Below are positions 24,207 through 61,050 of a stretch of DNA of 64,000 nt, piece by piece. Both the position numbers and the translations under genes were made by a program. The DNA comes from Halorubrum sp. CBA1229 (GTDB lineage: Archaea; Halobacteriota; Halobacteria; Halobacteriales; Haloferacaceae): contig NZ_CP054585.1 of assembly GCF_003721435.2 (NCBI RefSeq), positions 1,674,001 to 1,738,000 on the forward strand. Reading direction: 5' to 3'. The notes beneath the pieces are model-generated. The model saw only the letters and a list, made by a program, of their open reading frames with translations, did no database searches and was not told where the DNA came from. Positions within the stretch are counted from its first letter, which is position 1, and the number at the start of each line of letters is the position of its first letter.

Positions 24207-24340
24207 CCCACGCCGAGTGTGGCGGTTTCGTCGTGGGATCCGGTTCAGTAGCTCCGTGGGGACCCGACTCTTCGAACGTGAGGTCGCTCGAAACGGAGGT
24301 CGATGCGGTATTTAAAGGGCGACGAGCTGCGGCGAAGATA

Positions 24341-24720
24341 GCTTATAAAATCGGATGCGGTGGCGCGTGCCCGTGAGCGGCCGGCAGGCCGCGAACAGCG
24401 AGGGACCTTCGGTCCCTCTGGCAGCCGGCGGCTTTGCCGCCGGCGACGGCACCGCGCGAGGGAGTCGGTGGTCCGGAGCGAAGCGACGGACCACCGACGA
24501 GGCTGGGGAGGCGTGAGGTGTGGTTGCGGTGCGGTCGGGGTGGGACTCAAAGGGGCAGCCGCGAGGGCGAAGCACGACGACGCAAGCACTGCGGGGAGCG
24601 AGCACCGCGAGCGACCGAAGCGCGCAGCGAGTCGCGCGAGTCCTCGCGGCTGGGGCTTTGGCGGTGTTCACCGCAAAGCAACCAGTCACGTAAACCCGAA
24701 CGGCCGAGGCTTCGGATGTC
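24341..24720 (+). ncRNA. Dispersed structured-RNA element, copy A
   Basis: This fills the gap between panB (ends 24759) and the DUF460 promoter. In order: TATA-like CTTATAAAA (24342), head GCGGTGGCGCG (24357), helix P1 (24363-24371 with 24448-24457, one bulge) enclosing P2 (24377-24382/24387-24392), GAGGGAG, helix P3 of 12 bp (24464-24475/24487-24498), GAGGCTGGGGAGGCGTGAGG, ACTCAAAGGGGC, helix P4 of 10 bp (24557-24566/24642-24651), GGGGCTTTGG and a GGTGTTCACC hairpin. One degenerate tail unit follows. The P1-P2 junction carries extra hairpins with TTC and TTT loops. Frames within it are broken, composition-driven ORFs, not genes. RNA nature is inferred from covariation across the four copies. 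Confidence 0.65.
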
Positions 24721-24758
24721 TTCTCCGCAGCGCCGCCGTTCGCTGATAACTATCCGAC

Positions 24759-25565
24759 TCAGTACAAGTCCTCGAGGTCCTCCTCGACGTGGGTGTGCTC
24801 GTCGGCCGGGAACGCGCCGCTCTCGACGGCCTCGCGGTACGCCGCGACGGCGTCGGCCATCTCGCCGCGCACGTCGCCGAACTGCCGGGAGAACGGGGGC
24901 GACCACTCGCCGAGCCCGATCGCGTCGTTGATCACGAGCACTTGCCCGTCGCAGTCGGGGCCCGCGCCGATGCCGATGGTGGGAATGTCGAGCGCCTCGG
25001 TCACCGCCCCCGCGAGGTTCGCCGGGACGTGCTCCAAGACGAGCGCGAACGCGCCGGCCTCGGCGTGCGCTCCCGCGAGTTCGACGATCTCCTCGGCGGC
25101 GTCCTGATCGGTCCCCTGTCGCGTGTACCCGCCCAGTCGATTGACGTGCTGGGGAGTCAGGCCGAGGTGGGCCATCACCGGGATCCCGACGTCGGTCATG
25201 TGCCGGGTCATCGAGACGGTGTGCGGGCCGCTCTCGATCTTCACCGCGTCGGCGTTCGCCTCCTTCACCAGCCGGCCGGCGTTGCGCACGGATTCGCTCT
25301 CCTCGACGCCGAAGGTGAGGAACGGCATATCGGCGACGACGAGCGCGTCCTCGGTCGCGCGGGCGACCGCCGCGGTCCGGCTCGCGACCTCGTCGAGCGT
25401 CACGGGGAGCGTGGAGTCGTACCCCAAGGCGGTGTTCCCCATGCTGTCGCCGACGAGGATCACGTCGATCCCGGCCTCGTCCACGACCGCCGCGGTGGGG
25501 GCGTCGTACGCGGTCAGCATCGTGATCGGCGCCTCGCGGTCCCGGAGTCCCCGCGTCGTGGTCAT
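24759..25565 (-). CDS. panB: 3-methyl-2-oxobutanoate hydroxymethyltransferase
   Basis: 268 residues, full family length. Conserved blocks ITMLTAYDAPTAAVVDEAGIDVILVGDSMGNTALGY (Mg-binding aspartates), VADMPFLTFG, MAHLGLTPQHVNRLGGYTRQG and TIGIGAGPDCDGQVLVINDAIGL are visible. It transfers a hydroxymethyl group from methylene-tetrahydropterin/folate to ketoisovalerate, the first step toward pantoate and coenzyme A. Start ATG 25565 has a GATTTTAA box 25-32 nt upstream. No other CoA-synthesis gene is adjacent. Confidence 0.95.
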   Translation of the reverse strand: MTTTRGLRDREAPITMLTAYDAPTAAVVDEAGIDVILVGDSMGNTALGYDSTLPVTLDEVASRTAAVARATEDALVVADMPFLTFGVEESESVRNAGRLVKEANADAVKIESGPHTVSMTRHMTDVGIPVMAHLGLTPQHVNRLGGYTRQGTDQDAAEEIVELAGAHAEAGAFALVLEHVPANLAGAVTEALDIPTIGIGAGPDCDGQVLVINDAIGLGEWSPPFSRQFGDVRGEMADAVAAYREAVESGAFPADEHTHVEEDLEDLY

Positions 25566-30585: not shown

Positions 30586-30593
30586 GATAAATA
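30586..30593 (-). promoter_or_regulatory. TATA box, alaX
   Basis: Minus-strand TATTTATC, 23-30 nt before ATG 30563. The divergent TTTATAAA of element copy B lies only about 20 nt away, so the two promoters are back to back. Confidence 0.5.
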
Positions 30594-30613
30594 GGTGTTC
30601 GCCTCGGCGTTCG

Positions 30614-30985
30614 TTTATAAACGACTGCGGTGGCGCGCGCCTCCGAGCGGCCGCCCCGGCGGCCGCGAGGTGCGCGTGCGAGGGAGTCGCTGGCGCCGCT
30701 GGCGCCAGCGACGAGGCTGGGGAGGCGTGAGGTGCGGTCGCTGTGCGGTGTGGGGTGGGACTCAAAGGGGCAGCCGGGAGGTGGGCGCAGGCGACGCAAG
30801 CAGCGTGGCGCGTAGCGCCACGGGCAGCCGGCGGCGAAGCCGCCGGCGACACCGCAGGGAGCGAGTGAAACGAGCGACCGAGGAGCGCAGCGAGCGTGCG
30901 CCCGCCTCCCGGCTGGGGCTTTGGAAGTGTTCACCGCCGGTCTCTCAGCAACCATTTATAAACGAGCGGCTGGGGACTTAACAGT
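30614..30985 (+). ncRNA. Dispersed structured-RNA element, copy B
   Basis: Lies between alaX and dodecin. TTTATAAACGA (30614) and head GCGGTGGCGCG (30627) are followed by P1 (30633-30641/30669-30677, two GU pairs), P2 (30647-30655/30658-30666), GAGGGAG, P3 of 12 bp with a three-base loop (30686-30697/30701-30712), GAGGCTGGGGAGGCGTGAGG, ACTCAAAGGGGC and P4 of 17 paired positions with one mismatch (30772-30789/30897-30914). GGGGCTTTGG and a tail unit (30913-30969) end it, and the next unit begins at 30970. P3 and P4 sequences differ from copy A yet pair fully. Two palindromes with GTA and GAA loops sit in the P4 interior. Frames inside it are artefacts. Confidence 0.65.
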
Positions 30986-31054
30986 CTCTACCGTCGATCC
31001 GCGGTCGACCGAGACATCGAAAGAATCCTCGAAACCGACCGATGCGCGCCGCTC

Positions 31055-48881: not shown

Positions 48882-49370
48882 CTTATAAATCCGCGGCGGC
48901 GCGCACCTGCGAGCGCCCGTCGGGCGCGAGCAGAGTGCGCGAGGGAGTCGGACCGGCGCGGTCGCGCCGGTCCGACGAGGCTGGGGAGGTGTGAGGCTGC
49001 GGTTGCGGTCCCGCGAGCGGAGCGAGCGGGAGCACGGAAGTCGCAGCCCGCGCAGCGAAGCGAGCAGGAACGTCTTCCGGTGGTGCTGTGCGGGGTGGGA
49101 CTCAAAGGGGCAGTCGCGAGGACGACGCACGGCGACGGTAGCACCGCAGCGAGGGAGCGAAGCGACCGAGCGAGGAGCGCACCGGGCCGCGCGAGTCGTC
49201 GCGGCTGGGGCTTTGGAGGTTTTCACCGCCGATCCAAGATCAATCATTTATAAGCGATCGACTGGGGCTTTGGAGGTCTTCACCCCCGATCCAAGATCAA
49301 CTATTTATAAGCGAGCGGCTGGGGCTTCGGGAGTGTACGCTGCAGACCTGTCGTTCATTTATAACCAATT
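48882..49370 (+). ncRNA. Dispersed structured-RNA element, copy C
   Basis: Between hisD and the small membrane gene at 49475. CTTATAAAT (48882), a head variant GCGGCGGCGCG (48893), P1 (48900-48906/48935-48941), P2 (48913-48918/48922-48927), GAGGGAG, P3 of 14 bp (48947-48960/48963-48976), GAGGCTGGGGAGGTGTGAGG, then an extra module of about 85 nt shared with copy D (roughly 49005-49090), ACTCAAAGGGGC, P4 (49112-49119/49199-49206 with a GU pair) and GGGGCTTTGG. Three tail units at 57-nt period complete it. The remaining spacer (48756-48881 and 49371-49474) shows no gene; GGTATTTAAA occurs at 48847. Confidence 0.65.
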
Positions 49371-49375
49371 GACCC
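49205..49375 (+). repeat. 57-nt tandem tail units of element copy C
   Basis: CTGGGGCTT begins at 49205, 49262 and 49319, exactly 57 nt apart. The first two units contain GGAGGT...TCACC, then GATCCAAGATCAA and ATTTATAAGCGA. The third is degenerate and ends in TTCATTTATAAC. Copies B and D carry the same 57-nt unit. Confidence 0.9.
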
Positions 49376-60139: not shown

Positions 60140-60465
60140 TCGGCCCGGACAGAGGGAGCCCGACTCCCGTGCCTCTGGCATGAGGAAAGTCCCCCCACCG
60201 GCCGGACAGGCGACCGGGCACACGCCCGGAGTCGGAGACGGCTGGCTCTGGAACAGCAACGACACCCCCCGCCCCGACCCGTGAGTCGAGCGAACCGACC
60301 CGCGAGGGAAGGGAGTTAACCCGACGAGGTTCGACGGGCGGGAACGGATGGAACGGCGAATCCTCGCCGGTGCAAGTCCGCGCCACAAGGTAGTCCGGCC
60401 ACGGCGCGGACGCTCAGCCGAATGTCGGGACGAACCGAAGGGGGCTTACTCCCCTCAGTCCGCTT
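60140..60465 (+). ncRNA. rnpB: RNase P RNA
   Basis: Archaeal type A RNase P RNA. Conserved regions are present in order: GAGGAAAGTCC near 60182 (CR I), the GGTGCAAGTCCGCGCC and GGCGCGGACGCTCAGCCGAATG region (about 60370-60425), and AACCGAAGGGGGCTTACTCC near 60433 (CR V). The 5' end (CGGAC, 60146) pairs with GTCCG (60458) as P1. A CTTATT box at 60117 gives a start near 60142. It is the catalytic subunit that trims tRNA 5' leaders. Ends are approximate. Confidence 0.93.
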
Positions 60466-60497
60466 CTACTCGGTAGTCGTGGGTGTCTGCGTTTGCG

Positions 60498-60667
60498 CTT
60501 TTATAAGTTGTATCGGCAGCCGCAGCGCGGTGACGGCCTCCAAAGCTCCAGTCGCTCGGTTATCGCAGTCGCTCCTACTGGTAACGCGACGACCACCTCC
60601 AAAGCCCCAGCCGCTCGTTTATACGTACTCGACGCCGGATCAACGGTGAACACCTCCAAAGCCCCAG
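60498..60667 (-). repeat. 57-nt tail units of element copy D
   Basis: Unit 1 spans 60611-60667 (57 nt), unit 2 is about 59 nt (60552-60610), unit 3 ends in CTTATAAAAG near 60498. All begin CTGGGGCTTTGGAGG or close to it on the minus strand and contain a TATAAA-like or equivalent AT box. Confidence 0.85.
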
Positions 60668-61003
60668 CCGCGAGGGCGGCGTACGCTCGCTGCGCTCCTC
60701 ACTCGGTCGCTCACTTCGTTCGCTCCCTCTTTGCGGTGCTTTCGTCGCCTACGCCGCCCTCGCGGCTGCCCCTTTGAGTCCAACCCCGCACAGCAACCGC
60801 TGGAAGACGTTCCTGCTCGCTTCGCTGCGCGGGCTGCGACTTCCATGCTCCCGCTCACTTCGTTCGCGGGACCGCAGCCTCACGCCTCCCCAGCCTCGCC
60901 GCGACGGCGCATATAAGCGCCGTCGCGGGCTCCCTCGCGCGTGCGATTCGCGGCCCGAAGGGCCGCTCACCGGCACGCGCCACCGCATCGTTTGTTTATA
61001 AAT
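60498..61003 (-). ncRNA. Dispersed structured-RNA element, copy D
   Basis: Minus strand, in the gap between rnpB and the CPBP gene. From the head: TTTATAAAC (60995-61003), GCGGTGGCGCG, P1 (60973-60980/60937-60944, 8 bp perfect), P2 with GAA loop on plus (60950-60956/60960-60966), GAGGGAG-type block, P3 of 12 bp (60899-60910/60917-60928), GAGGCTGGGGAGGCGTGAGG, the extra module shared with copy C, ACTCAAAGGGGC, P4 of 18 perfect bp (60666-60683/60750-60767) and GGGGCTTTGG. Three tail units follow to 60498. The tail meets rnpB head-on 33 nt past its 3' end. Confidence 0.65.
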
Positions 61004-61050
61004 AACCGCGTGGCCGCCGGCAGTACGACCGATTCGCGACGCTCTACTAT

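Follow-up and report, generated by a model that had tools for sequence, protein, structure and literature searches.

What is repeated in the tail of the element that we call copy C (positions 48882-49375), and why is it repeated? An earlier sequence-only reading of the window, by which we mean the whole 64,000-nt stretch of Halorubrum sp. CBA1229 DNA analysed here, had described this tail as 57-nt tandem units, each with its own TATA-like box, and had proposed either tandem expansion or a set of repeated 3'-processing or promoter sites.

Tandem units in the window

Allowing two mismatches at most, CTGGGGCTTTGG was found in the window at 49205, 49262, 49319, 30913 and 24650 on the + strand, and on the − strand with 5' ends at 60667, 60610 and 60551. 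The search returned 11 matches against 2.2 expected, a number reached in 0 of 100 shuffles, and TRF independently reported a period of 57 nt from 49201 to 49327 (88% match, score 205). Both agree with the exact 57-nt spacing claimed for copy C. The other copies also bore out the earlier description: copy B has a full unit at 30913-30969 followed by CTGGGGACTTAAC starting at 30970, the spacings in copy D are 57 and 59, and copy A has the unit at 24650 and a degenerate one 54 nt further on. The general formula proposed for the unit fits the consensus of 68 distinct 57-nt units, CTGGGGCTTTGGAGGTGTTCACCGCCGATCCGCCGTCAACCATTTATAAGCGAGCGG. The features concerned are as follows.

49205..49261, + strand: tail unit 1 of copy C, holding the 3' arm of the core hairpin
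49262..49318, + strand: tail unit 2 of copy C
49319..49375, + strand: tail unit 3 of copy C, the last and diverged
49090..49230, + strand: core hairpin of copy C (covariance-model match of 148 bits); 5' arm GGTGGGACTCAAAG-GGG-CAGTCGCGAGG, 3' arm CTG-GGG-CTTTGGAGGTTTTCACC
24305..24770, + strand: copy A, with core hairpin 24535-24675, a unit at 24650 and a degenerate unit at 24704
30590..31010, + strand: copy B, with units at 30913-30969 and from 30970
30750-30938, + strand: core hairpin of copy B, containing an inserted double-hairpin module
60480..61010, − strand: copy D, adjoining the RNase P RNA gene, with core hairpin 60789-60642 and unit starts at 60667, 60610 and 60551

The unit carries one strand of a conserved helix

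In each unit a variable linker follows a conserved block, CGAGCGG-CTG-GGG-CTTTGGAGGTGTTCACC, which is complementary to the 5' strand of the core hairpin, GGTGGGACTCAAAG-GGG-CAGYCGC. The hairpin starts with GGTGGGACTCAAAG-GGG-CAGYCGCGAGG and ends with CCTCGCGRCTG-GGG-CTTTGGAGGTGTTCACC; the first 23 nt of tail unit 1 make up its 3' end, and in helices 1 and 2 of A2 columns 10-23 pair with columns 131-147, which are unit positions 7-23. The 5' strand of this basal helix is present once and the 3' strand recurs in every unit. Since the conserved half of each unit is the 3' strand and its partner is single, the tail amounts to a series of spare 3' strands. The 3'-processing alternative raised earlier would come nearer to the nature of the unit, as judged from its sequence, in that the unit copies the 3' strand of an RNA helix.

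The 38-pair core structure was paired in 98.1% of cells across 45 diverse copies, with changes on both sides in 20 of the 38 pairs and 171 double-change cells, as compared with 41 after shuffling and at most 19 when the partners were slid. A separate alifold analysis of 87 whole RNAs recovered this basal helix as well as additional covarying hairpins upstream of it. In the core hairpin, G-U cells numbered 141, of which 55 lay outside two constant pairs, as compared with 5 A-C cells, and the sense strand had a lower predicted minimum free energy than the antisense strand in 45/45 copies; the strand-specific wobbles and modelled sense folding would favour an RNA read from the sense strand. Perfect hairpins were dominated by three-base loops, often C(GNA)G. 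Such loops are very stable in single-stranded DNA too, and from this loop preference a role of the hairpins as single-stranded DNA retains some residual probability.

In other genera the core reads ACTGAAAG...CTTTCGA, so that the change of C to G in ACT[C/G]AAAG is paired at the genus level by a change of G to C in CTTT[G/C]GA, and the tail units, where present, follow it. The GGG/GGG internal loop of the basal helix was invariant in 45/45 copies. Complementarity between a copy's own 5' strand and the tail strands of its second and later units was slightly above that of permuted combinations (p=0.019). As a separate observation, this loop and an upstream GGGTGGG make up four G tracts at 49090-49230 and in all other copies, from which a quadruplex could arise in molar potassium; every tail unit contributes another GGGG.

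The 5' region of the RNA and its TATA box

Upstream of the core hairpin, copy C contains the following elements.

48883..48889, + strand: TATA box TTATAAA at the 5' end, putative promoter of the RNA
48892..48946, + strand: 5' RNA module with a GCGCGCACC stem and the inner hairpin GCGCCC..GGGCGC (alifold and covariation, 87 copies)
48947..48976, + strand: covarying hairpin GTCGGACCGGCGC..GCGCCGGTCCGAC (columns 138-146 with 230-238, several pair types)
48977..48996, + strand: conserved strand GAGGCTGGGGAGGTGTGAGG
49008..49084, + strand: inserted hairpin module, found also in copy D and missing from most copies and from L248, the ortholog of copy D

The distance from the start of the TATA box to GGYGGCGCG, where the structured RNA starts, peaked at 15-18 nt (57 of 103 copies), and GCGACGATCRC immediately upstream of the box was weakly conserved. 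At this fixed spacing the 5' TATA box is likely to be the promoter of the RNA.

Double-hairpin modules (e.g. GTGGCGC..GCGCCAC-GGGCA-GCCGGCGGC..GCCGCCGGC-GACA) were seen in some copies only and at few fixed insertion places (49008-49084, 60796-60882 on the − strand and 30823-30872 in the window; also L011, L014, L022, L205, L206 and L248). They are gained or lost between orthologs and resemble small nested elements. Other copies have lost the hairpin, apparently by a join between G-rich repeats such as GAGGCTGGGG|CTTTGG, or no longer have any of the RNA that lies between the terminal repeats (hairpin or RNA losses: L051, L058, L291, L293, L294, L297 and L210).

A dispersed non-coding element of the Halobacteria

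The TGGGACTCAAAGGGGCAG core (CGG in one copy) occurs 47 times on the chromosome of this 3.58-Mb genome, in both orientations, and 0 times when read backwards; a covariance model added copies with altered cores. Within Halorubrum the element was present in 47 of 52 genomes at 0-105 copies each, and the covariance model of the core hairpin recovered family members from 110 of 145 Halobacteria genomes, spread over 46 of 58 genera, with E values as low as 4e-23 at loci fetched from other genera. Named plasmid-borne examples come from Haloarcula, Halorussus, Natrinema and Halobaculum. Judged by gene calls from a codon model, the copies of this genome are intergenic, and in 31 of 46 cases their downstream neighbour is encoded on the opposite strand. 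At the Rfam 15 gathering score RNase P RNA was the sole family in the window, the best sub-threshold match having E=1.1, and the letters of the core motif appeared in no paper of the open literature searched, subscription journals lying outside that search. An origin from haloviruses was rejected, the core having no match among 50,697 phage records. Matches on viral contigs (L181-L191) turned out to hit the 16-base pattern by chance and to lack the element, and seven of these loci gave no match to the covariance model.

Like MITEs, the element is short, non-coding and without a transposase, and a subset of copies has terminal inverted repeats of about 20 bp. Among 179 Halorubrum copies, CGATAGCGGGAGTGGGTGTT-like termini were found at the 5' end in 19, at the 3' end in 14 and at both in 8, the inverted-repeat ends of two-ended copies being CGATAGCGGGAGTGGGTGTTGCAG... 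and ...TATACCCACTCCCGCTATCG. In this genome L199 alone has both ends, and the copies in the window have no terminal inverted repeats. Short two-ended copies measure 440-451 bp, and modules or an extra unit extend this to about 605. Inspection of the two-ended copies revealed no consistent target-site duplication, and the inverted repeats may reach further out. Of 30 loci with the 5' terminus, 28 continue into the RNA element, L293 has an internal deletion and L303 reaches a contig edge; a transposase took the place of the RNA at 0 of the 30, and no autonomous transposon with the same termini was found among these loci.

Loci in other genera (L036, L044, L046, L055, L060 and others) carry the core with different 5' neighbours. 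Head-to-head core pairs about 50 nt apart were seen at L054, L055 and L060. L039, L043 and L044 have repeats of roughly 30 nt upstream that end in CAGTCCACCG, which is complementary over most of its length to GGTGGGACTG, the start of the core.

Length and number of the units

The 179 Halorubrum copies carried 0 (8 copies), 1 (94), 2 (50), 3 (20), 4 (5) or 5 (2) units. The claim that unit number differs among copies was thus upheld, with 1-5 units in 46 of the 47 exact-core copies of this genome. The accompanying claim of a fixed length was not: 57 nt dominates (76 spacings), yet 54 (20), 51 (7), 60 (4) and 48 (2) recur, and 45, 55, 58 and 59 occur once each. Multiples of 3 make up 14 of the 17 independent length classes other than 57, as would be expected if the tail were a coding minisatellite of 19-codon repeats. 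The units have no coding signature: variation is equal across the three codon positions, stops interrupt 23 of 102 distinct units even in the best-looking frame, and many arrays contain stops. Because codon-position variability is flat and stops are common, coding is not the cause of the unit lengths, and we consider a coding tail hardly credible. A CRISPR-like array was rejected as well, since the linkers duplicate together with the units (L204, L024 and L212).

Unit number changes at fixed sites, as would be seen for a minisatellite inside a mobile element. At site D this genome has three units and L248 has one, which corresponds to our own last unit; the flanks are orthologous (92%) and the bodies closely similar, apart from two inserted hairpin modules, one on each side. 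Site C is empty in most of the other species; in the remainder it holds an array of 2-4 units, an inverted copy, a copy without the core stem or a left remnant. Sites are partly common to several species and their bodies differ, in a comparison of species pairs that is biased in that every fetched stretch had to contain a core; old insertions followed by frequent recombination between copies would fit this pattern. The spacer beside the archaeal RNase P RNA gene (60148-60460) looks like a favoured site, because several Halorubrum species carry elements with differing bodies there.

Within arrays, mean identity was 0.85 between proximal neighbours and 0.64 for the last pair, and L204 contains four identical units followed by one diverged. 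In two-unit arrays strand mismatches averaged 1.7 in unit 1 and rose to 3.6 in unit 2, and the strands were 78% identical between units whose linkers were at the random level (54%). We read these gradients as duplication and deletion taking place between strands near the hairpin, with distal strands that would be relaxed and still under some constraint. The differing numbers at orthologous sites, together with proximal units that are identical in many arrays and distal ones that have diverged, bear out the earlier suggestion of tandem expansion or contraction after spread.

Origin and possible role of the extra units

Taken together, these results suggest that the tail is probably a short tandem array (1-5 units, mostly of 57 nt) in which one helix strand, the 3' strand at the base of a structured RNA, is iterated, the RNA being carried by a dispersed non-coding Halobacteria element. 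Most likely, one strand is constrained and the others are partly relaxed spares. The 5'-terminal TATA box of the element would drive transcription of the RNA, as the fixed spacing of this box and the G-U-biased, sense-specific pairing suggest. Recombination or replication slippage between near-identical 3' strands would change the unit number, perhaps helped by the hairpin. Full constraint would fall on the stem-adjacent strand only and a weaker one on the distal strands, which, if active at all, may serve as alternative 3' strands and supply extra GGGG tracts. The TATA boxes of the units would be AT-rich linker rather than promoters. The multiples of 3 among the unit lengths do not follow from this model and count against it.

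That the units are promoters, a repeated TATA box driving the neighbouring gene or the array, is a doubtful alternative. The 57-nt consensus does include TTTATAA, and the class I repeats of the halovirus HF2, of 56-58 bp, are proven promoters (PMC8707807). However, the box once assigned to every unit is present in part of them, a TTATAA-like box being found in 58 of the 113 internal units and in 95 of the 171 last ones, and being absent from the remainder. The 54-nt class has a CGTAGTACC-like sequence, CGTA(G/T).., at the TATA position, and elements of other genera have CGTA/TAGCGAGCGG in its place. In addition, a start about 26 nt past the box would fall within the conserved strand of the next unit, and the gene downstream is mostly in the opposite orientation. 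The earlier promoter proposal was not sustained by these observations.

A functional role for the extra units as alternative 3' strands, giving a family of folds or a GGGG-tract quadruplex whose balance is set by unit number, is possible, if somewhat unlikely. Such a role would accord with a conserved block that equals the complementary strand, with strands kept well above the linkers between units and with the invariant GGG/GGG loop; against it, constraint drops away from the hairpin, the covariation of each copy with its own tail is weak, and more than half of the copies (the 94 above) have a single unit. The larger proposal of a mobile structured RNA of Halobacteria that exchanges the 3' strand of its basal helix, possibly with a potassium-stabilized GGGG quadruplex, and whose fold or function is tuned by unit number, we regard as unlikely. 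It is slightly less likely still that the units are scars of repeated insertion, each newcomer having settled next to the 3' strand of an element already in place, the last unit of which is left downstream. Two pairs of loci (L027/L107 and L093/L110) do share orthologous flanks and last unit while body and first units differ, but proximal units are 100% identical in many arrays (four in L204; also L024 and L212), which fits tandem duplication, and at site D the last unit and much of the body are common to our copy and L248 even though their unit numbers differ. A tail of one constrained strand and partly relaxed spares remains the reading that we prefer.

As a natural experiment in which one helix strand is iterated and its number changes at fixed sites, the tail lets the mutation process and the use of extra strands be tested directly. 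Present in most sampled Halobacteria genomes at up to about 100 copies each, the RNA, with compensatory changes of this strength, would rank among the structured RNAs that are most abundant in haloarchaea; it also accounts for a class of intergenic repeats left blank by gene annotation.

Comparison with known repeats

The HF2 class I repeats resemble the units in their length near 57, their AT-rich motif and their occurrence in a haloarchaeal virus, and differ in being dispersed single viral repeats with other motifs (central CGTCTNNTAGAG) and proven promoter activity (PMC8707807). Identity with repeats of this type was rejected, half of the units being without a TATA box and the core being unmatched in the phage records. 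The PATE, MITE and SMR elements are described, in the parts of the Haloquadratum walsbyi study available to us, as haloarchaeal non-coding mobile repeats in tens of copies, with core deletion via repeats and small elements nested in palindromes; those parts describe neither a tandem tail nor a covarying RNA (PMC3119063). According to the same parts, SMR-A elements measure about 110 bp, and PATEs are relatives of IS605-type transposons that have no terminal inverted repeats of their own (PMC3119063). Our complete copies do have terminal inverted repeats, and on termini alone the element was set apart from the IS605-derived PATEs.

BrickBuilt, the minisatellite-containing MITE of Porphyromonas gingivalis, is similar in being intergenic and present in many copies, in its small inverted-repeat ends and predicted stem-loops, in being absent from Rfam and in having an internal tandem repeat that varies in number from strain to strain at a single locus (PMC4596501). 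It differs in its 23-nt units and its restriction to one bacterial species, and its unit is not reported as a strand of a covarying helix (PMC4596501). In the haloarchaeal element, by comparison, the 57-nt unit is a helix strand plus a linker and the RNA is class-wide; the main new point of this work is that the unit repeats a single strand of a conserved RNA helix, in an element that is itself apparently undescribed.
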